Notes under the pieces: generated by a model
What the model was told of the DNA's origin: nothing
Seen by the model: only the letters and a program-made list of their open reading frames with translations
Database searches by the model: none
From: Streptomyces sp. NBC_01341
Lineage (GTDB): Bacteria > Actinomycetota > Actinomycetes > Streptomycetales > Streptomycetaceae
Reading direction: 5' to 3'
Assembly: GCF_035946055.1 (NCBI RefSeq)
Contig: NZ_CP108364.1
Span: 2,108,001 to 2,172,000 of the forward strand
DNA length: 64,000 bases
Made by a program: the position numbers and the translations under genes
Shown: piece by piece, positions 3,719-62,608 of the stretch
Layout of the letters: the number at the start of each line of letters is the position of its first letter
Position numbering within the stretch: the stretch's first letter is position 1

Positions 3719-4543
3719 CTATTCTTCCACGGCCTGCGGCCTGCGCCAAAATCGGCCGCCGGGCTCCGGGGACCAGCCGAGGATGGAGAGGATCTCGCGG
3801 TCCTTCTTGTCGAAGCCGGATGCCTCGCAACGCTCGATGAGATCCGGCCGGTTGAGCGCGGTACGACGGAATGCCTCGTCCCGCCGCCAGCGCGCGATGC
3901 GCCCGTGGTGCCCGCTCAGCAGCACGTCCGGGATGCCCCGGCCACGCCACTCGGGGGGCTTCGTGTAGACCGGGCCTTCCAGGAGGTCGGCCATGGCTCC
4001 GGGCGCGAAGGAGTCGTCCCGGTGCGACTCGGCGTTGCCGAGCACCCCCGGCAGCAGCCTGGCCACGGCCTCCGTGATCACCAGGACGGCGGCCTCCCCG
4101 CCGGCCAGGACGTAGTCCCCGATGGAGACCTCGACGACGGGCATCCGGGTCGCGTACTCGTCCGTCACCCGGCGGTCGATGCCCTCGTAGCGGGCGGGAG
4201 CGAAGACCAGCCACGGCCGCTCCGACAGCTCCACGGCGAGCTCCTGGGTGAAGGGCCGGCCACTGGGTGTAGGCACCACGAGCACCGGGGAGTGCGCCCC
4301 TGCCTCGTATCCGTCGGCCAGCGCGTCGTCCAGGGCCTCGCCCCACGGGCCGGTCTTCATGACCATGCCGGGGCCGCCGCCGTACGGGGTGTCGTCCACG
4401 GTGTTGTGCCGGTCGTGGGTCCAGTCACGCAGGTCGTGGACGTGTACGTCGAGGCTGCCCCGGGCGCGGGCCTTGCCGACGAGGGAGACGTTCAGGGGTT
4501 CGAGGTACTCGGGGAAGATCGTGACGACGTCCAGCCGCATCAC
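3719..4543 (-). CDS. trmD: tRNA (guanine-N1)-methyltransferase TrmD
   Basis: Methylates G37 next to the anticodon of tRNAs that read CNN codons, using S-adenosylmethionine, and so prevents +1 frameshifting. The N-terminus is [11 protein letters not shown]. The trefoil-knot SAM site contains APARYEGID and the [13 protein letters not shown] segment at about residues 130-150. The start is GTG at 4543, or ATG at 4540 immediately after; either overlaps the rimM stop (GTGATG), implying translational coupling. At 274 residues it is a normal actinobacterial length. Confidence 0.97.
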
Positions 4544-5130
4544 GCGCCGCCCTTCTTCCCGTCGTCCGCGGCGTCGTCGCCGGCGCTGTCCTCGTCGCGC
4601 ACGGACGCGATGACGGCCTCGCTCTCGTCGATCAGACCGGGCGGCGGCGTGATGACGGCACGCTGCTCCTCCAGGTCGATCTCGGTGACGATCTCCTCGA
4701 CGAACGGGATCATCACCTCGCTGCCGTCCGGGCGTTCCACGATGAAGAGGTCCTGCGAGGGCAGGTGAGTGATCTCCGTGATCCGGCCGATCTCGGTGCC
4801 GTCGGCCAGGACGACGTCGAGGTCCATCAGCTGGTGGTCGTAGAACTCCTCGGGATCCTCCGGCAGTTCCGCGGGGTCCACCTCGGCGATCAGCAGGGTG
4901 TTGCGCAGCGCCTCGGCGGCCGTGCGGTCGCGCACCCCCTCGAACCGCAGCAGCAGCCTTCCGCTGTGCACCCGGCCGGTCTCGATGGCCAGCGGCCCCA
5001 CGTGGGCGGGCTCGGTGGCCAGGACGGCGCCGGGCCCGAGCCGGAGCTCGGGCTCGTCGGTGCGCACCTCGACGGTGACCTCGCCCTTGATGCCGTGGGC
5101 GCGACCGATCCGCGCAACTACCAACTGCAC
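4540..5130 (-). CDS. rimM: 16S rRNA processing protein RimM
   Basis: Assembly factor for the 30S head; binds S19 and helps mature the 3' domain of 16S rRNA. The N-terminal beta-barrel begins [17 protein letters not shown]. The C-terminal PRC-barrel domain includes the [10 protein letters not shown] segment (about residues 90-105) and [12 protein letters not shown]. An acidic tail ([15 protein letters not shown]) is typical of streptomycete copies. The GTG start at 5130 is preceded by GGGAG. The gene couples to trmD by a 4-nt overlap. Confidence 0.96.
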
Positions 5131-50523: not shown

Positions 50524-51996
50524 CTACGCCGCGAGCTTCGCCAGTGCCGCGTCGATCCGGGCGATCGTCTTCTCGCGGCCCAGGATCTCCAGGGACTCGA
50601 AGAGCGGCAGGCCGACCGTGCGGCCGGTGACGGCGACACGGACCGGGGCCTGCGCCTTGCCGAGCTTCAGGCCGTGCTTCTCGCCGGCGGTGAGCACGGC
50701 CGTCTTGAGCGCCTCGGCGTTCCACTCCGCCGCGGCCAGCTCGGCCCGGGCCGTGACGAGCAGGGCGTCGGAGCCCTCCTTCATGGCCTTCGCCCAGGAC
50801 GCCTCGTCGTGGACGGGCTCGTCCAGGAAGAGGAAGTCCACGTTGGCCGTGATGTCCGAGAGGACCGTGACGCGCGTCTGCGCGTGCGGGGCGATCTCGG
50901 CGAACTGCTCCGCGTCGAAGGCCTCGGGGGCCCAGGGCGCGAAGGGGGCCTTCAGCCAGGGGCCGCACGCCTCGGTGAAGGTCTTCACGTCGAGCATCCG
51001 CAGGTGCTCGGCGTTGATGTGCTCGGCCTTCTTCAGGTCGAAGCGCGCCGGGTTGGCGTTGACGTCGGCGATGTCGAACGCCGCCACCAGTTCGTCACGG
51101 CCGAAGATGTCGCGGTCCTCCGCGATCGACCAGCCGAGCAGCGAGAGGTAGTTGATCAGCCCCTCGGGCAGGAAACCCCGTTCGCGGTAGAGGTTGAGCG
51201 AGGCCTGCGGGTCGCGCTTGGAGAGCTTCTTGTTGCCCTCGCCCATGACGTACGGCAGGTGGCCGAACGCAGGGGTGTACTTGGCGATGCCCAGTTCGAT
51301 GAGCGCCCGGTACAGGGCGATCTGGCGCGGGGTCGAGGAGAGCAGGTCCTCGCCGCGCAGGACGTGGGTGATCTCCATCAGCGCGTCGTCGACCGGGTTG
51401 ACGAGCGTGTAGAGGGGCGCACCGTTGGCACGGACGATGCCGTAGTCCGGGACGTTCTCCGGCTGGACCGTGATGTCGCCGCGGACCAGGTCGGTGAAGG
51501 TGATCGCCTCGTCGGGCATCCGGAAACGGATGATCGAGGTGCGGCCCTCGGCCTCGTACGCGGCCTTCTGCGCGTCGCTCAGGTCACGGCAGTGGCCGTC
51601 GTAGCCCGAGGGCCTGCCGGCGGCGCGGGCGGCGTCGCGGCGGGTGTCGAGCTCCTCGGTGGTGCAGTAGCACGGGTACGCGTACCCGGCGGCCAGGAGC
51701 TTCTCGGCGACGTCCTTGTAGAGGTCCATCCGCTGCGACTGGCGGTAGGGCTCGTGGGGGCCGCCGGTCTCGGGGCCCTCGTCCCAGTCGAGGCCGAGCC
51801 AGCGCATCGAGTCGAGCAGCTGCGTGTACGACTCCTCGGAGTCGCGCGCCGCGTCGGTGTCCTCGATGCGGAAGACCAGGGTGCCCTGGTGGTGCCGGGC
51901 GAAGGCCCAGTTGAAGAGAGCTGTCCGGACCAGGCCCACGTGGGGGTTGCCGGTCGGGGAGGGACAGAAACGTACACGGACAGGGGGGTTAGCCAC
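50524..51996 (-). CDS. gltX: Glutamyl-tRNA synthetase
   Basis: Class I synthetase. 490 residues from GTG 51996 ([15 protein letters not shown]). The HIGH motif appears as HVGL (residues 19-22) and the KMSKS motif as KLSKR in [13 protein letters not shown] (about 249). Actinobacteria lack GlnRS, so this enzyme is expected to be non-discriminating, charging both tRNA-Glu and tRNA-Gln with Glu before GatCAB amidation. Overlaps the FAH gene by 8 nt. Its two tRNA substrates lie 0.9-1.4 kb away. Confidence 0.97.
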
Positions 51997-52765
51997 GCTT
52001 GATCACCTTGTTGGTGAGAGTGCCGATGCCTTCGATGGTGACGGCGACCTCGTCGCCGACGTGCAGGGGTCCGACGCCCGCGGGGGTCCCCGTCAGGATC
52101 ACGTCGCCCGGGAGCAGTGTCATGGCCTCCGTGATGTGGACGACCAGATCCTCCACGGAGCGGATCATGTCGCTGGTCCGGCCGAGCTGTCGCTGCTCGC
52201 CGTTGACCGTGGCCTGGATGGCCAGGTTGCCGGGGTCGACGTCGGTCTCCACCCAGGGCCCGAGCGGGCACGCGGTGTCGAAGCCCTTCGCGCGGGCCCA
52301 CTGGCTCTCGCGACGCTGGACGTCGCGGGCGGTGACGTCGTTGGCGCAGGTGTAGCCGAAAATGACGTCTTTGACCCGCTCGCGCGGGACCTCGCGGCAC
52401 ATGCGCCCGATCACCACGGCGAGCTCCGCCTCGTGGTGCAGTTCGTCGGAGAACGAGGGGTACTCGATGGCGTCGCCCGAGCCGATCACCGAGGTGGTGG
52501 GCTTGAAGAAGGCCACGGGGACGTCCGGGACCTCGTTGCCCATCTCGGCGGCGTGTTCCGCGTAGTTACGGCCGATGGCCACGACCTTGTTCGGAAGCAC
52601 GGGCGGGAGCAGCCGGACCTTCTTCAGCGGGACCTTGGTCCCGGAGAGTTCGAAGTCGGCGTACGGGATGCCCTTGATGATGTCGAGGACGAGGCTGTCG
52701 GGGCTGTCGCCCTCGACCGCGCCGAAGGCGACATTGCCGTCGATGGAGAACCTGGCGATGCGCAC
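51989..52765 (-). CDS. Fumarylacetoacetate hydrolase family protein
   Basis: 258-residue FAH-fold enzyme of the 2-hydroxyhepta-2,4-diene-1,7-dioate isomerase / acylpyruvase type. Metal ligands fit [10 protein letters not shown] and the later ANDVTARD region; [12 protein letters not shown] and [13 protein letters not shown] are family hallmarks. Substrate not predictable. Upstream of and overlapping gltX, so co-expressed with it, as is usual in Streptomyces. Confidence 0.92.
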
Positions 52766-52882: not shown

Positions 52883-52911
52883 AGGCCCCCGCAGCCGGGC
52901 TGCGGGGGCCT
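52883..52911 (-). terminator. Terminator between small ANPRRT gene and FAH gene
   Basis: Perfect 13-bp stem (52883-52895 with 52899-52911), 3-nt loop. It isolates the upstream small gene from the FAH-gltX unit. Confidence 0.85.
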
Positions 52912-53058: not shown

Positions 53059-53241
53059 TCAGCCGGCGGCCGCGACCGGGGCCTCCATGAGGATGGTGCG
53101 GCGGGGGTTGGCCGTCTGGGTCGGCAGGTCGACGGCGTGCTCCGGCTGTTCCGGCGTGTGCAGGGTCCCGGCGCCGTCGAGGTGCGCCAGCGTGGTGCGC
53201 CGGGGGTTGGCAATGTTGCGGAACGTCATCGTCGTCTTCAT
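53059..53241 (-). CDS. 60-residue protein with duplicated ANPRRT motif
   Basis: Small protein of unknown function starting at ATG 53241 (MKTTMTFRNI); AAGGG lies about 12 nt upstream, while the longer GTG start at 53274 has no ribosome-binding site. The hexapeptide ANPRRT occurs at residues 11-16 and 44-49, each followed by T/I-L, separated by an acidic Gly/Pro/His-containing linker (LDGAG, TPEQPEH). No Cys, no membrane helix. The DNA encoding the two motifs is a near direct repeat (53093-53112 and 53192-53211). It has its own terminator and is divergent from conservon 1. It could be a peptide precursor, an adaptor or a regulatory peptide. Confidence 0.62.
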   Translation of the reverse strand: MKTTMTFRNIANPRRTTLAHLDGAGTLHTPEQPEHAVDLPTQTANPRRTILMEAPVAAAG

Positions 53242-53822
53242 CTGCCGTATGGGCCCTTGCCGCTGGGGCGCCACCAGGAGGGGCGCCGGTTGTCGGATTC
53301 GCTATCCCTGTAAAGCGTCAGGCTAAACATCCGATTCCCCGCCCGGGCCGGGAAGAGACGTCGATCATCATGTGAGTTTGCTCACGAAGTGAGCGACAAT
53401 CCACTCATCACGGACAGTCGATCGCGTGAGGCAAAGCAGACAATCCGTCACTGAATCTGTCATTCCGCTCCCGATCATGTCGACTGGGACACCCCTCACC
53501 CCCCTCGACGACACCCCTATTCACCCCATTTGACCCCGAACACGATCCACGCCTTGTTACCCACCCATCACACCGTGTCATACAGGTCACAGCCCGGTAC
53601 ACGGGCCTTGTTGGAGATCCTCCACTGTGCTGGAATTCCACGCACCGCCGCGGGTTTCAGGCCCAGCGCGCAGGGGCGCAACGCAGCGCCGAGTGGCGGC
53701 GGGAGGGGGAAGTACGCCGGTCACTCACGACCACCATGGGGCGCGTCGAGCGCCCCACGACGCCGACACCGTCCTGCCGTGCCACGCGCGGAGGGACGCC
53801 TGGTCCAGAGGTTGCGACGCTA
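53242..53822. other. Divergent intergenic region upstream of conservon 1, 581 bp
   Basis: Holds the promoter of cvnA1 and of the ANPRRT gene. It is less GC-rich than average (53330-53620) and contains the repeated CTCAC/GTGAG element listed separately. No coding frame is convincing. Confidence 0.5.
53373..53393. promoter_or_regulatory. Triple half-site element GTGAG-n4-CTCAC-n3-GTGAG
   Basis: Three alternating half-sites give two overlapping palindromes (53373-53385 and 53380-53394). It lies 132 bp upstream of the ANPRRT start and 430 bp upstream of cvnA1. Operator-like; regulator unknown. Confidence 0.5.
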
Positions 53823-56800
53823 GTGCAGGGACGTTTCAAGAGGGATGGCATGGGGTCGCCCCAGCCCCGCCAGGGCCGAGGGGAAACTCCGGCGGATCAG
53901 GAGCCGCGCGGCGGGAACGACCGCGGCGCCTCACCCCAGCACGCCCAGAATTCCGGTGCGGCCGGTGACGGCGGCGACCGGGCGCAGCGCCCCGGCGCCC
54001 AGAACGGCGCGAGTGCGGACGTCACGGCGCCCGCCAAGCCGGCCGGCCCCAGCAACACCGGCTCACGCATAGCCCTGCGCAACTGGCGCATCAGCACGCG
54101 TCTGGTCTCCCTGCTCGCCCTCCCCGTGGTCGCCGCGACCACCCTGGGCGGGCTGCGCATCAACGAGTCGATGAACGACATCGATCAGCTGGAGCACATG
54201 CAGCTGCTCACCAAGATGACGAAGCAGGCGACCGCGCTCGCCAACGCGCTCCAGGAGGAGCGCGACAAGTCGGCCGGTCCGCTGACGAACGGCGTGAAGG
54301 CCACCGACTTCAAGGTCACCGAGCCCCGCAAGCGCACCGACCGTGCCGAGCAGGCCTTCCTCGAGGCCACGGACGAGATCCGCAACACGCCCGGCGACGC
54401 GGCCCTGGACAGCATCCACGCGAGTGTCAGCCAGATCAGCAACCAGCTCGGCAACATCACGAGCATCCGCAAGGACGCCTACGCGAAGGGTTCGCCGAGC
54501 CTCAACACGGTCGACCAGTACAGCCAGCTGATCACCTCCCTGCTGAGCCTCTCCCAGGACATGGCGCAGGCCACCAGCAACCCGGAGATGATCAAGCGCA
54601 CCCGTGCCCTGGCCGCCTTCTCCTCCTCCAAGGAGTACGCCTCGGTCGAGCGGGCCATCATCGCCGCGGCCCTCCCGGGCGGCGACAGCGAGAAGACCCA
54701 CCTGAACCCGAACGACCAGGCGTTCGGCCGTAACGCGCTCCACAAGGCGGACACGACCCTCCAGACGTTCGAGTCGACCTACGAGTCGACGGGCAAGAGC
54801 TCCACCGATCTCCTCGCGCCGCTGGACAACGGCAACCCCGAGATCAAGGCTGCCGACATGTACGCGAAGAGGGTGCTCGACAGCCCGCTGGGCATGGAGG
54901 GCAGCAAGTCGCGTACGTACATGGACTGGTACGACCAGAGCTCCAACAAGATCCAGGCCATGAAGACCATCGAGGAGACCCTCCTCGGTGACATGGAGAG
55001 CAAGGCCCGCGAGCTCCGTGAGGAGTCGCAGCGCGACGCCATCCTCAACGGTGCGATCATCCTCATCGTCCTCGGTGTGTCACTGGTCGGCGCCTTCGTC
55101 GTGGCGCGGTCCATGATCCGCTCGCTGCGCCGCCTGCAGGACACCGCGACCCGGGTCGCCCAGGACCGTCTGCCCGAGCTGGTCAAGCAGCTCTCCGAGA
55201 CGGACCCGCAGGACGTCGACACCTCCGTCGAGTCGGTCGGTGTCCACTCCCGCGACGAGATCGGCAAGGTGGCCGCGGCCTTCGACGACGTGCACCGCGA
55301 GGCGGTCCGTCTGGCCGCCGAGCAGGCGCTTCTGCGAGGCAACGTCAACGCGATGTTCACCAACCTCTCGCGCCGCAGCCAGGGCCTCATCCAGCGTCAG
55401 CTCTCGCTCATCTCCGAACTGGAGTCCCGCGAGGCCGACCCGGACCAGCTGTCCTCGCTCTTCAAGCTCGACCACCTCGCGACCCGTATGCGCCGGAACG
55501 GTGAGAACCTCCTCGTCCTCGCGGGTGAGGAGCCCGGCCGCCGGTGGACGCGTCCCGTGCCACTGGTCGACGTGCTCCGTGCCGCCGCCTCCGAGGTGGA
55601 GCAGTACGAGCGCATCGAACTGGCCGCGGTGCCCGCCACCGAGGTCGCCGGCCGCGTCGTCAACGACCTCGTGCACCTGCTCGCCGAGCTGCTGGAGAAC
55701 GCCACGTCGTTCTCCTCGCCCCAGACGAAGGTCCGGGTCACCGGTCACGCGCTGCCCGACGGCCGTGTGCTCGTCGAGATCCACGACACCGGCATCGGCC
55801 TCTCCCCCGAGGACCTGGCCGCGATCAACGAGCGGCTGGCCTCGCCGCCGACCGTGGACGTCTCGGTGTCACGCCGCATGGGTCTGTTCGTGGTCGGCCG
55901 GCTGTCCCTGCGTCACGGCATCCGGATCCAGCTGCGTCCCTCCGACTCCGGTGGTACGACCGCGCTCGTCATGCTGCCCATGGAGGTCGCGCACGGTGGC
56001 AAGCAGCCGCCGAAGCAGAGCAACGGCCAGCAGGGCGGCGCACCCGGCGGGCTCCTCGCCGGCGGCGCTCCCGGCGGCGGGCAGCGTCCCGGCCTCGCGG
56101 GCCCCGGAGGGGCTCCCGCCAAGGGTCTGGGCTCGTCCGCTCCGCTCGGCCAGGTCGGCGCGGGTTCCGCGCCGCGGGCCGCGCTGCCCTCGCGCGACGG
56201 CGGACCGCGCCAGCCGCAGCAGGGCAACGGCCAGCAGTTCGGCAACCAGCAGGCCCCCGGCCTGCCGAACCAGGGCCGCCCGGAGGCGCCGCGTCAGGGT
56301 GGCGGACTCTCCGGAGCCTTCGGCGGCGGTGCCCGGATGGGCGCACGCGGGCCGCAGGACGGATCGGCTGGTACGGACCCGAACCGGCCGAACCTCTTCG
56401 GTCACTCCGGATCGCAGGCCGGCCAGCAGAGCGGCCCGCCCGCCCGGCAGTCCCCGCAGCCGCAGCAGGCCCAGTTCGGTCAGGGCGCCCCGCAGCAGCC
56501 CGGCGGCCCCGGCCGCCAGCTGCCGCCGTCCGGCGGACCGCGGGCCGAGCTGCCTGGCGGCAACCCGCAGGCGCAGCACCCGCAGACCCAGAACTGGGGC
56601 GCCGAGGAGCAGGGCGCCCAGGGGCGCCCGCAGCCGGACGTCCCCCGCGGTCACGAGGAGACGGACGCCGGACGCTTCGCGCGGCCGGGCAGCTCCGCAC
56701 CGAACCAGCAGTTCAGCCCGCAGAACCAGCGTCCGCCGGTGAACGACCGTCAGGAATACGGCGCCACGGCCGAGTTCGCCCGCCCGGACTTCTCCGCGCC

Positions 56801-57518
56801 GCAGGCGCCGCAGGTCCCGGACGCGGCGAGCACCGCGCAGTTCGCCCGTCCGGACTTCGGCGCGCCGATGCCGCAGGACCAGGGCTACGGCGCCCAGGCA
56901 CCGCAGCGTCCGCAGATGCCCGCACCGGACCGGCAGGACAACGCCGGCTTCGGGGCACCGCGGCACCCGGCCCCTTCCGCCGGGGAGCTGCCGCACCGTC
57001 CGGCGCTGCCGCAGCAGCACGAGGTGCTGCCGCCCGCCGGTCCCGGTGACGGACGTACGCCGCTGTTCGACACGCTGGAGACGAACTGGTTCCACGGCCC
57101 GCAGCAGGGCGGCCAGCAGCCGCCGGCCGTCGAGCCGCAGGCACCGGCCGCTCCCCAGCCCGTCGGCAACCCGGCTCCGCCCATGCCCCGGCGTGGTGCG
57201 GCCGACGGGGGCGTCACGAGTTCCTGGCGCGCTTCGCCCAACGACGAGCTCGTGCGGCAGGCGGAGCGGGTCAAGAAGCCCGCCGCGGGCGGGATCACCA
57301 CGTCCGGGCTGCCTCGCAGGGTCCCACGTGCCAATTTGGTACCGGGCACCGCTCAGCAGCAGAATCATCAGTCCGGACCCCAGGTTTCGCGTGCGCCCGA
57401 TGACGTACGCGGCCGTCTGACCAATCTCCGCCGGGGCATCCAGCAGGGACGACAGGCCAACAACGGCTCGTCTACCGGCAGTTTCCATCTCGGCCCCACT
57501 CACCAGCAGGAGCGTTAG
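53823..57518 (+). CDS. cvnA1: Conservon protein CvnA1 (NIT-domain histidine kinase-like)
   Basis: Membrane sensor of the first conservon, 1231 residues. N-terminal Pro/Gly-rich segment, membrane helix at about 92-110, an extracytoplasmic NIT (nitrate/nitrite-sensing) domain to about 385, second helix near 404-426, HAMP, then an ATPase domain with N-box AELLENATSF and G-box HDTGIGLSPEDLAAINERL (about 622-690). No standard H-box; LDHLATRMRRNGENLLVL occupies that position. The last ~500 residues are low-complexity Gln/Pro/Gly. In S. coelicolor cvn9, CvnA groups with CvnB-D at the membrane. The start (GTG 53823) is supported by AGAGGTTG-n8-GTG spacing shared with cvnA2; ATG 53850 is the alternative. 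Confidence 0.92.
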   Translation: MQGRFKRDGMGSPQPRQGRGETPADQEPRGGNDRGASPQHAQNSGAAGDGGDRAQRPGAQNGASADVTAPAKPAGPSNTGSRIALRNWRISTRLVSLLALPVVAATTLGGLRINESMNDIDQLEHMQLLTKMTKQATALANALQEERDKSAGPLTNGVKATDFKVTEPRKRTDRAEQAFLEATDEIRNTPGDAALDSIHASVSQISNQLGNITSIRKDAYAKGSPSLNTVDQYSQLITSLLSLSQDMAQATSNPEMIKRTRALAAFSSSKEYASVERAIIAAALPGGDSEKTHLNPNDQAFGRNALHKADTTLQTFESTYESTGKSSTDLLAPLDNGNPEIKAADMYAKRVLDSPLGMEGSKSRTYMDWYDQSSNKIQAMKTIEETLLGDMESKARELREESQRDAILNGAIILIVLGVSLVGAFVVARSMIRSLRRLQDTATRVAQDRLPELVKQLSETDPQDVDTSVESVGVHSRDEIGKVAAAFDDVHREAVRLAAEQALLRGNVNAMFTNLSRRSQGLIQRQLSLISELESREADPDQLSSLFKLDHLATRMRRNGENLLVLAGEEPGRRWTRPVPLVDVLRAAASEVEQYERIELAAVPATEVAGRVVNDLVHLLAELLENATSFSSPQTKVRVTGHALPDGRVLVEIHDTGIGLSPEDLAAINERLASPPTVDVSVSRRMGLFVVGRLSLRHGIRIQLRPSDSGGTTALVMLPMEVAHGGKQPPKQSNGQQGGAPGGLLAGGAPGGGQRPGLAGPGGAPAKGLGSSAPLGQVGAGSAPRAALPSRDGGPRQPQQGNGQQFGNQQAPGLPNQGRPEAPRQGGGLSGAFGGGARMGARGPQDGSAGTDPNRPNLFGHSGSQAGQQSGPPARQSPQPQQAQFGQGAPQQPGGPGRQLPPSGGPRAELPGGNPQAQHPQTQNWGAEEQGAQGRPQPDVPRGHEETDAGRFARPGSSAPNQQFSPQNQRPPVNDRQEYGATAEFARPDFSAPQAPQVPDAASTAQFARPDFGAPMPQDQGYGAQAPQRPQMPAPDRQDNAGFGAPRHPAPSAGELPHRPALPQQHEVLPPAGPGDGRTPLFDTLETNWFHGPQQGGQQPPAVEPQAPAAPQPVGNPAPPMPRRGAADGGVTSSWRASPNDELVRQAERVKKPAAGGITTSGLPRRVPRANLVPGTAQQQNHQSGPQVSRAPDDVRGRLTNLRRGIQQGRQANNGSSTGSFHLGPTHQQER

Positions 57519-59395: not shown

Positions 59396-62300
59396 GTGAG
59401 GCGAAGCAACGAGGGCTCCGCAGCGCAGCCGGAGCGGGGCAACTTCACCCCTCCGCGCGCCGCGGTGTCGCCTTCGGTCACGTCCGAGGCGGAGCCGGCG
59501 GGGGGCAGCACCAGCCGGCTGTCACCGCGCAACTGGCGGGTGCCCACCCGGCTGAACGCGATTCTCCTGATACCCGCGCTGGTCGGCCTGGTCATGGGCG
59601 GATTCCAGGTGAAGGGGTCGGTCGACACCTGGAACGAAGCCCAGGACGCCGAGAAGACGGCACTGGTCGTCCGCGCGGCCGGGGAGTACGGACAGGCGCT
59701 GCTGAACGAGCGAGACCTCACCGCCCAGCCGCTGCTGTCCAACAAGCGCGCCGCTTCCGAGGTCGAGGAGGTGCGTGCCACCACCGACGCCGCCGCCGCG
59801 AAGTTCGCCGAAGCCGTGCAGGACATGCCGGACAAGGAAGGGCTCGACCGCCGCCTGAAGCTGTTCAAGGTGGAGGAGCCGCTCCTCCCCGAGCTGCGCA
59901 AGGCCGCCTACGCCGAGGCCATGGACCCGGTGAAGACGGAAGAGGGCTACACCAAGGTCCAGCACTCGCTCATGGAGTTCTCCAACGAGCTCGGCCTGGG
60001 CACCGGCAACATCACGAGCTACGGCCGGACCGTGTACGCGATCGAGCTGGCCAAGGCCGCAGAATCGCTTCAGCGCTCGATCGGCATGCACCTGCTGGTT
60101 CGGCCGAGCCAGGAGGAACGCAACTTCAACGGCCAGGTCACGGCGTTCAGCTCGTACAACTACCTGGAACAGATCGCCCTCGGCGAGTTCATCTCCGGAG
60201 GCACGGGGGCGGACGCTGCCCGCCTCAAGGAGGTCATGGCCGGCAAGGCCGCCGAGGGGGCCGAGCAGCTGAAGGCCGCCAAGGCCCAGGCGAAGGCCGC
60301 CGGGAAGCCCTTCGTCTCGCCCCCGAGCATCGACGGTTCGGTGTTCGACGGCATGGCGCAGCAGATCGGGCAGGGCAAGCAGCCCGACGAGCTGAAGGCC
60401 AAGGGCATCACGCCCGAGACCTGGATGGCCGCGGCCACCGCGAAGTTCGACGGTTACACCACGGTCGAGAACGAGCTCGTCGACAAGGCGGTGACCGAGG
60501 CGGCGGAGATCTCCACCGACGCCAGGAACGACGCCATCGTCAACGCCGCGATCGTGATCATCGCGCTGCTGGCGGCCTTCATCATCGCCGGACTCATGGC
60601 CCGCCAGATGAGCCGCTCGATGCGCCAGCTGCGTACGGCCGCCTTCGGCATCGCCGAGCAGAGGCTCCCGATGCTCGTCGACCAGCTGTCGCGGACCGAG
60701 CCCGGCCGGGTGGACACCCGGGTACAGCCCATCCCGATCAACAGCCAGGACGAGATCGGCGAGGTCGCCCGCGCCTTCGACCAGGTCCACCGCGAGGCGG
60801 TCCGGCTCGCGGCCGAGCAGGCCATGCTCCGGGGCAACGTCAACGCGATCTTCACCAACCTCTCGCGCCGCAACCAGTCGCTCATCGAGGGCCAGTTGAC
60901 CCTCATCACCGATCTGGAGAACAACGAGGCGGACCCGGACCAGCTGGAGATCCTCTTCAAGCTGGACCACCTGGCCACGCGTATGCGCCGCAACGGCGAG
61001 AACCTCCTCGTCCTCGCGGGCGAGGAGCCCGGCCGCCGCTGGAACCAGCCGGTTCCGCTGGTGGACGTGCTGCGTGCCGCCTCGTCCGAGGTCGAGTCCT
61101 ACGAGCGCATCGAGCTCACCGGCGTGCCGGAGAGCGAGATCCACGGCCAGGCCGTGACCGACCTCGTGCACCTGCTGGCCGAGCTGCTGGAGAACGCGAC
61201 CACCTTCTCCTCACCGCAGACCAAGGTCCGCGTCACCGCGACCCGGCTGCCTGACGGGCGGGTCATGGTCGAGATCCACGACAAGGGCATCGGCCTCACC
61301 GCCGAGGACTTCGCGGACATCAACCACAAGCTGGCCAACCCGCCGACCGTGGACGCCGCGGTGTCCCAGCGCATGGGTCTGTTCGTGGTCGGCCGGCTTG
61401 CCGACCGGCACGGCATCCGTGTCCAGCTGCGCCCCTCGGGCGAGCAGGCGGGCACCACGTCGCTGGTCATGCTGCCGGACCCCATCACCCACGGTGGTGG
61501 TGGCGACTCCTCGCCCGAGGGGGACTTCACCGTCTCCTCGATCATTCCGGAGCAACAGCAGGCAACCGCGTTCGACCCCATGCCGCAGCCGCTTCCGATG
61601 CGTACGGCGGCGGAGCTCGGCTTCGACGACTCCCGCTACGACACCCCTGCGGCGGACTCCCCGCAGCTGGACCCGGTCAACCGTTCGCTGATGCGTGAGG
61701 AGCGGCGTGCCGCTCTGGAGGCGCAGGCCGGTGGCGAGCGCCCGGACTTCCAGGGCAACGGCGCCGCACAGCAGCAGGGCTTCCCGCAGGAGGCGCAGCA
61801 GCAGGGCTTCCCGCAGGGTCAGTACGCCCAGGGGCAGTACGCATCCGAGCAGTACGGCCAGGGGCAGCAGGAGTACGCGCAGCAGCCCGCCTACGAGGCC
61901 GGCTACGAGCCGTACGCCGCGGGGAACGGGTACCAGGAGCCGCAGCAGAACGGTTATGCGGAATCCGCGTACCCGACCCAGGGCGGCTCCCAGGAGCAGT
62001 ACTCCGATCAGTTCGCACCGCCGGGTGATCAGTCCCAGCAGGGCGAATGGGCGGCTCAGGGTTCCTACCAGGGTGCCTTCGAGCCCCAGGTGCAGGCCCA
62101 AACGGAATCTGCGCCGAGCCCTCCCGCCGAAGAGGCGGAGCGCGTAGGCTTCGACCGCCCGGGACCCACCCCCAGCCCCGGTCACGATCTGACCGAAGCG
62201 GGTCTCCCGCGCCGTGGTGCGGGCCAGCAGCACTGGCAGCCGACCGGCCGCGGAAACGATCAGCCTGCGCTGCCGGCGCAGCGGCCGCAGCCGGAGGTTC

Positions 62301-62608
62301 CGGAGCAGCAGACGGAGACCTCCGACGGCAACGGCGAGGACTGGCGTTCGGCGAACGACGAACGCTGGGAGCGGGCCGAGAAGCTCCGGGATCCGAAGGC
62401 GGGCGGGATCACCCCGTCCGGACTCCCCCGGCGCGTGCCCAAGGCCAATCTGGTCGAGGGCACTGCGGAGCAGACCCAGCAGGGCGGCCCCCAGGTCTCC
62501 CGCGCTCCGGAGGACGTGCGGGGCAGGTTGAGCAACCTGCGCCGCGGGGTCCAGCGGGGACGTACCGCGGGGTCGGACACAAGTAATACCTACAACCAGG
62601 AGCGTTAG
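59396..62608 (+). CDS. cvnA2: Conservon protein CvnA2 (NIT-domain histidine kinase-like)
   Basis: Sensor of the second conservon, 1070 residues from GTG 59396. Membrane helix at about 52-70, NIT-type extracytoplasmic domain, second helix near 382-402, HAMP, then an ATPase domain with LLENATTFSS and HDKGIGLTAEDFADINHKL (about 593-660). The C-terminal ~370 residues are Gln/Gly/Tyr/Pro-rich, different from the CvnA1 tail. Both proteins end near an ITPSGLPRRVPKANLVEG-like element followed by GPQVSRAPEDVRGRLSNLRRG. The sensory domain diverges from CvnA1, so the two conservons probably sense different signals. The 268-bp upstream region holds its promoter. Confidence 0.92.
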   Translation: MRRSNEGSAAQPERGNFTPPRAAVSPSVTSEAEPAGGSTSRLSPRNWRVPTRLNAILLIPALVGLVMGGFQVKGSVDTWNEAQDAEKTALVVRAAGEYGQALLNERDLTAQPLLSNKRAASEVEEVRATTDAAAAKFAEAVQDMPDKEGLDRRLKLFKVEEPLLPELRKAAYAEAMDPVKTEEGYTKVQHSLMEFSNELGLGTGNITSYGRTVYAIELAKAAESLQRSIGMHLLVRPSQEERNFNGQVTAFSSYNYLEQIALGEFISGGTGADAARLKEVMAGKAAEGAEQLKAAKAQAKAAGKPFVSPPSIDGSVFDGMAQQIGQGKQPDELKAKGITPETWMAAATAKFDGYTTVENELVDKAVTEAAEISTDARNDAIVNAAIVIIALLAAFIIAGLMARQMSRSMRQLRTAAFGIAEQRLPMLVDQLSRTEPGRVDTRVQPIPINSQDEIGEVARAFDQVHREAVRLAAEQAMLRGNVNAIFTNLSRRNQSLIEGQLTLITDLENNEADPDQLEILFKLDHLATRMRRNGENLLVLAGEEPGRRWNQPVPLVDVLRAASSEVESYERIELTGVPESEIHGQAVTDLVHLLAELLENATTFSSPQTKVRVTATRLPDGRVMVEIHDKGIGLTAEDFADINHKLANPPTVDAAVSQRMGLFVVGRLADRHGIRVQLRPSGEQAGTTSLVMLPDPITHGGGGDSSPEGDFTVSSIIPEQQQATAFDPMPQPLPMRTAAELGFDDSRYDTPAADSPQLDPVNRSLMREERRAALEAQAGGERPDFQGNGAAQQQGFPQEAQQQGFPQGQYAQGQYASEQYGQGQQEYAQQPAYEAGYEPYAAGNGYQEPQQNGYAESAYPTQGGSQEQYSDQFAPPGDQSQQGEWAAQGSYQGAFEPQVQAQTESAPSPPAEEAERVGFDRPGPTPSPGHDLTEAGLPRRGAGQQHWQPTGRGNDQPALPAQRPQPEVPEQQTETSDGNGEDWRSANDERWERAEKLRDPKAGGITPSGLPRRVPKANLVEGTAEQTQQGGPQVSRAPEDVRGRLSNLRRGVQRGRTAGSDTSNTYNQER

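Follow-up and report, generated by a model that had tools for sequence, protein, structure and literature searches.

Conservon-associated proteins and the cvn1 locus

Among the proteins known to accompany conservons, CvnE and CvnF are encoded beside a cvnA gene and act as accessories on CvnA; they go with CvnA proteins that have no sensory domain, and both are folded, CvnF as a GAF protein and CvnE as a cytochrome P450 (PMC13343842). MfpA, a gyrase modulator, is a non-core protein encoded within the operon of the mycobacterial mfp conservon, a pentapeptide-repeat DNA mimic of 183 to 192 aa found in Mycobacteriaceae only (PMC13015309). For the cvnA1 promoter region, published reports place WhiB (with WhiA), BldC, BldD, WblC, and ScbR2 there and, among them, associate the loss of BldC with lower cvnA1-D1 transcripts (PMC4850268, PMC6428758, PMC5859096, PMC7157823, PMC4595836). 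The gene that faces cvnA1 across this region in Streptomyces coelicolor, SCO5545, appears as an uncharacterised divergent partner in a ChIP-seq/EMSA study, and in that study, on ScbR2, neither divergent gene changed much (1.024 and 0.952; PMC4595836). According to another report, sven5239 of S. venezuelae lies at the same position relative to cvnA1 (PMC4850268). In the searched literature, the SCO5545, vnz, and sven tags and the motif described below led only to the WhiB paper, and no function was found for the gene.

Here, we examined the divergent partner of cvnA1 in a window of 64,000 nucleotides from Streptomyces sp. NBC_01341. By synteny, we infer that this small gene is the orthologue of SCO5545, and sven5239 is probably the same gene, judging from its position next to cvnA1. 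The genes that define the locus are as follows.

53059..53241, minus strand: small ORF of 60 aa plus stop codon (53059-53061), from its translation, family-wide orthologues, and conserved start
53823..57518, plus strand: cvnA1, divergent neighbour, with a GTG start inferred from the conserved MQGRFKRDG
50524..52765, minus strand: FAH-family gene and gltX, the fixed downstream neighbours

Two conservons stand in tandem between 53823 and 62608: the cvnA1 operon, with cvnA1 itself at 53823-57518, and one with another CvnA-type ORF, at 59396-62608.

A small protein with two motif boxes

Translation of the minus-strand ORF 53241-53062 yields MKTTMTFRNIANPRRTTLAHLDGAGTLHTPEQPEHAVDLPTQTANPRRTILMEAPVAAAG, a Cys-free protein of 60 aa in which ANPRRT occupies residues 11 to 16 and again residues 44 to 49, an offset of exactly 33; the sequence-only reading, which had described ANPRRT-(T/I)-L twice at this interval, was thus right about the protein. 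Such a repetition is rare by chance, a repeated 6-mer appearing in 42 of 200,000 shuffles of the 60-aa sequence. The earlier coordinates of the gene, 53059-53274, took in an upstream GTG extension of the ORF. The start is at 53241, where M/V-K-T-T is kept, encoded as (A/G)TG-AAR-ACN-AC across 109 loci, with GTG as the start codon at 69 of them and ATG at 40. The codon-position GC content of the ORF (0.66/0.56/0.95) follows the pattern of Streptomyces genes. The parts of the protein are these.

53188..53211, minus strand: motif box 1, A11 to L18, ANPRRTTL
53113..53187, minus strand: variable linker, residues 19 to 43
53089..53112, minus strand: motif box 2, A44 to L51, ANPRRTIL, with T43 directly before it and P55 (T+6) after it

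We found no match that would assign the protein to a described family: no score exceeded the family cut-offs of Pfam, NCBIfam, or PHROGs, and a profile search of the PDB gave no convincing match, in agreement with the earlier failure to recognise the family. Small disordered motif proteins are known in general, and this motif and protein family are new as far as the databases and the searched literature reach. The protein shares with CvnE and CvnF a place beside a cvnA gene, but at 60 aa, disordered and divergently encoded, it has neither a Pfam match nor a predicted fold that would make it a GAF or cytochrome P450 protein. Like MfpA it is a non-core protein linked to a conservon, although it has no sequence likeness to that pentapeptide-repeat protein.

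Structure prediction with AlphaFold2, using 28 orthologues, returned a mean pLDDT of 58.6 and a pTM of 0.15, with no secondary-structure element long enough to list; the alignment consisted of closely related sequences, and a weak fold could still form on binding or oligomerisation. Inspection of the 60-aa sequence revealed no signal peptide, hydrophobic signal, or transmembrane stretch. This bears on the suggestion that the protein is a precursor, its boxes serving either for processing or as the core segments of a secreted peptide signal; a small protein without Cys that keeps two short segments would fit such a reading. As well as a signal or leader peptide, the linked processing, modification, or export genes of a secreted signal or RiPP precursor are lacking: no modifying enzyme, protease or peptidase, or exporter lies in the conserved neighbourhood. 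Moreover, the stretches that cleavage would release drift among relatives, and the motif is near-identical in all genera, unlike species-specific signals. We therefore regard this part of the sequence-only reading as very improbable.

The net charge of the protein is +1, and beyond the two basic turns the chain is otherwise neutral, an arrangement which could suit nucleic-acid binding through the N-P-R-R turns in the manner of S/T-P-R/K-R/K minor-groove motifs. We take these turns to resemble the SPKK motifs of that class. Nevertheless, no more than one or two basic positions persist in each box, and the equally conserved A, N, T, and L would be needless for contact with the DNA backbone, so that binding of this kind is, in our judgment, rather improbable.

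Constraint on the boxes

Beneath the two boxes lies a direct repeat, which had been reported as a near repeat of 20 bp. The repeat is real, but its length is 19 nt, with 18 of 19 positions matching and a spacing of 99 nt.

53193..53211, minus strand: 19-nt copy of the repeat beneath box 1
53094..53112, minus strand: 19-nt copy of the repeat beneath box 2, 18/19 identical

A nearly exact DNA repeat could mean that the ORF encodes no protein at all and that the repeat functions as DNA or RNA. We compared the window sequence with about 104 relatives inside and outside the boxes. Synonymous divergence (pS) is equal, at 0.258 in the boxes versus 0.257 outside, whereas nonsynonymous divergence is 0.019 in the boxes versus 0.138 outside; the resulting dN/dS is about 0.06 for both boxes together and 0.49 for the rest of the protein. 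Since synonymous sites are as free in the boxes as outside them while the amino acids are not, the repeat is preserved as protein, not as DNA, and the two boxes are under strong purifying selection at the protein level. In addition, the orthologues that were inspected have an open frame, and the spacing between boxes changes by whole codons. The reading as a noncoding element was accordingly dropped, its probability being close to nil.

Residue-level conservation was examined in 194 distinct orthologues. These were gathered by a motif pattern that itself fixed A, P, and the second R, so that the invariance of these three rests instead on alignments, whose rows were themselves picked as relatives. 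The orthologue group has two ANPRRTxL boxes in a protein of 53 to 73 aa, as does the ORF of the window. The boxes lie 33 residues apart in 148 of the 194 (range, 29 to 49), and L, rarely V, stands two residues past the T of each. Box 2, in most orthologues ANPRRT[V/I]LxxxP, is preceded by T in all 194 and has P six residues after its T in 190. The first Arg of the pair (R14 and R47) can be replaced by K, N, Q, or G. The N terminus, linker, and tail drift, constraint being confined to the boxes, and in the most distant genera nothing but the boxes is recognisable. The flanks of the boxes differ, I-A-N..TTL in box 1 versus T-A-N..[V/I]LxxxP in box 2, and it may be that they serve two different sites and not one.

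In box 1, RR is followed by T in 191 of the 194 and by S in 3; in box 2, it is followed by T in all, although the collecting pattern allowed only T, S, or V there. A hydroxyl residue kept in the context R-R-T-x-L recalls the site of a Ser/Thr kinase, with the protein as a phospho-switch or a pseudosubstrate. This would leave the conserved A-N-P and the proline at T+6 unexplained, and no kinase is encoded in the conserved neighbourhood; we deem phosphorylation an improbable account of the boxes.

Two strongly selected boxes on a drifting and apparently unfolded chain favour linear docking motifs. The protein lacks a stable fold, by prediction only, and its constraint is confined to the short repeated motifs. 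Binding motifs were among the functions that the sequence-only reading had proposed, and the evidence is most consistent with that proposal. Our preferred reading, with a confidence slightly above even, is a disordered protein of the cytosol that acts as a bivalent linear-motif ligand, each of its two ANPRRTxL boxes docking on a conserved partner. Each box would fit into a pocket on a partner conserved in Streptomycetaceae and the flexible linker would merely tether the two, while the presumed bivalency would provide avidity on a dimer or allow two partner molecules to be bridged. The two short boxes offer ready-made bait peptides for the partner.

Distribution and genomic context

Orthologues were detected by whole-genome search in 389 of 393 sampled genomes of the same genus, almost always in a single copy, and by profile search in 389 of 395 genomes of the family, covering 15 of 17 genera. 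Closer inspection of the misses recovered four further divergent orthologues at this locus, in three genomes of genus g2 and one of genus g5, which leaves without a clear match in the family one genome of genus g15 (G406) and one that is 71% complete (G508). Within the genus, the whole-genome search gave no clear match in four of the 393 genomes (G001, G010, G276, and G373). Genome G375 has a partial weak match only, at a locus that looks intact but is broken by indels, and G196 carries a second copy inside a frameshifted duplicate of the locus, which is taken as an assembly error or a decayed duplicate. No full orthologue was found outside the family in the class and order samples, no credible one in other families of the same order, and no relatives among plasmid and phage records or viral contigs. 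The small gene is real and near-universal in Streptomycetaceae.

The order of genes at the locus is fixed, with cvnA1 diverging on one side and FAH-gltX downstream on the other in 79 of 80 ten-kilobase loci, counted by coordinates, the 80th having been missed because the search pattern overlooked its ORF; the same flanking holds in distant genera. The sequence-only reading had named an absence of homologues and an unconserved frame as outcomes that would speak against it, and had proposed to see whether both motif copies and the cvn neighbourhood are kept. Homologues exist, their frame is conserved, and both copies and the cvn1 neighbourhood persist across essentially all Streptomycetaceae.

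This location would suggest a signalling role for the small protein, and in particular that of a dedicated conservon 1 accessory, the boxes binding Cvn1 proteins (e.g., CvnA1 as a dimer, or CvnB1, a roadblock protein) and modulating this actinobacterial G-protein system. The unbroken divergent adjacency to cvnA1 across the family and the conserved intergenic region common to both genes argue for it, as does the precedent of CvnE and CvnF as accessory proteins acting on CvnA (PMC13343842). However, FAH-gltX is linked equally tightly, so that adjacency may mean only that a stable locus has been inherited vertically; the small gene is divergent and stands outside the operon; the precedent concerns folded GAF or P450 proteins that go with CvnA proteins without a sensory domain (PMC13343842); and the motif also occurs in small ORFs of another family, near which no conservon was found (see below). 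We consider a conservon-dedicated function possible but, on balance, unlikely.

The intergenic region and transcription

As had been noticed in the earlier reading, the small gene and cvnA1 share one intergenic region, in a divergent arrangement, from which the small gene would be expressed. When upstream DNA from relatives is aligned, three strongly conserved features stand out in it.

53309..53330, minus strand: conserved element ATGTTTAGCCTGACGCTTTACA, close to the small gene
53372..53385, no strand assigned: conserved inverted repeat GTGAGCAAACTCAC
53462..53492, no strand assigned: conserved block GTGTCCCAGTC..CATGATC.GGAGCGGAAT, containing GACAC on the plus strand

ATGTTTAGCCTGACGCTTTACA probably serves the small gene as a promoter or regulator site, and the inverted repeat is likewise a probable regulator site. 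GACAC is the pentamer associated with WhiA (PMC3781837), which makes 53462-53492 a candidate WhiA site. Another conserved block lies at 53606-53680, about 180 nt ahead of the cvnA1 start, and reads CCTTGTTGGAGATCC.GCACTGTGCTGGAATTCCACG on the plus strand; it is likely the cvnA1 promoter, followed by a long 5' untranslated region.

Downstream of the small gene, the earlier reading had assigned it a terminator of its own.

52883..52911, minus strand: perfect 14-bp hairpin, terminator-like, with no T run, about 150 nt past the stop codon of the small gene

The hairpin is there, but it is not conserved: a stem of at least 9 bp within 250 nt of the stop occurs in just 21 of 78 relatives, compared with 5 of 80 in a shuffled control. 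Consequently, and with the FAH-family gene and gltX following on the same strand, transcription of the small gene on its own is only a possibility.

Near-universal in Streptomycetaceae, fixed next to a developmental regulator, and encoded beside intergenic DNA to which BldC, BldD, WhiA/WhiB, WblC, and ScbR2 are reported to bind, the protein likely matters to the life cycle. The link to development and the cytosolic location of the docking protein proposed above are putative.

The motif outside Streptomycetaceae

Within the host genome, the ANPRRT pattern has three other matches, none of them in a credible protein. A class-wide search identified, in several genomes of the actinobacterial family f17, ORFs of 45 to 60 aa that start M-x(3-4)-LANPRRT-(R/K)-(L/I)-xx-W-P, at seven loci (L254, L255, and L289 to L293). 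Like box 2 they carry the extended motif ANPRRTx[LI]xxxP, and like the window protein they have a polar low-complexity tail; they differ in having a single copy, at the extreme N terminus and followed by W-P, and in their neighbours. Among these loci there is no common neighbour or shared neighbour function. We treat the f17 ORFs as leads, whose homology by descent to the window protein is a possibility only, yet their single-copy motif suggests a more general docking element, and their occurrence is as expected if the motif is a functional unit. Its presence in another family would also offer an independent check. Tentatively, and with well less than even confidence, we propose that a conserved cellular machine reads ANPRRTx[LI]xxxP, which would be a new docking motif of actinobacteria shared by two or more different families of small proteins; its bivalent Streptomycetaceae version would couple that machine to the developmental programme controlled at the cvn1 locus.

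A similar sequence occurs in a type II topoisomerase. The ParC protein of one f17 genome (G964) reads YANPRRTVLMD, close to box 2, at the end of a coiled-coil segment. By analogy with MfpA, which shows that a conservon can include a gyrase modulator (PMC13015309), the boxes might be imagined to mimic the RRTxL of topoisomerase A subunits and to regulate gyrase or topoisomerase IV. In the host, ParC (FGTDRRTVLLE) shares only RRTxL with the boxes, GyrA has FGDDRRSKL, and neither contains the invariant ANP; the database match behind this idea is weak (E of 0.001, in 1 of 394 genomes). Because the host proteins share RRTxL or less, mimicry was put aside as hardly credible.

Finally, family f22 is represented by a single genome (G720), and an ORF with two motif-like segments, likewise a lead, is known from that genome alone: at L256, positions 4391 to 5077, a 58-aa reading contains VASPRRVRL and, at its C terminus, TANPRRTQV, and it is located directly upstream of groEL.
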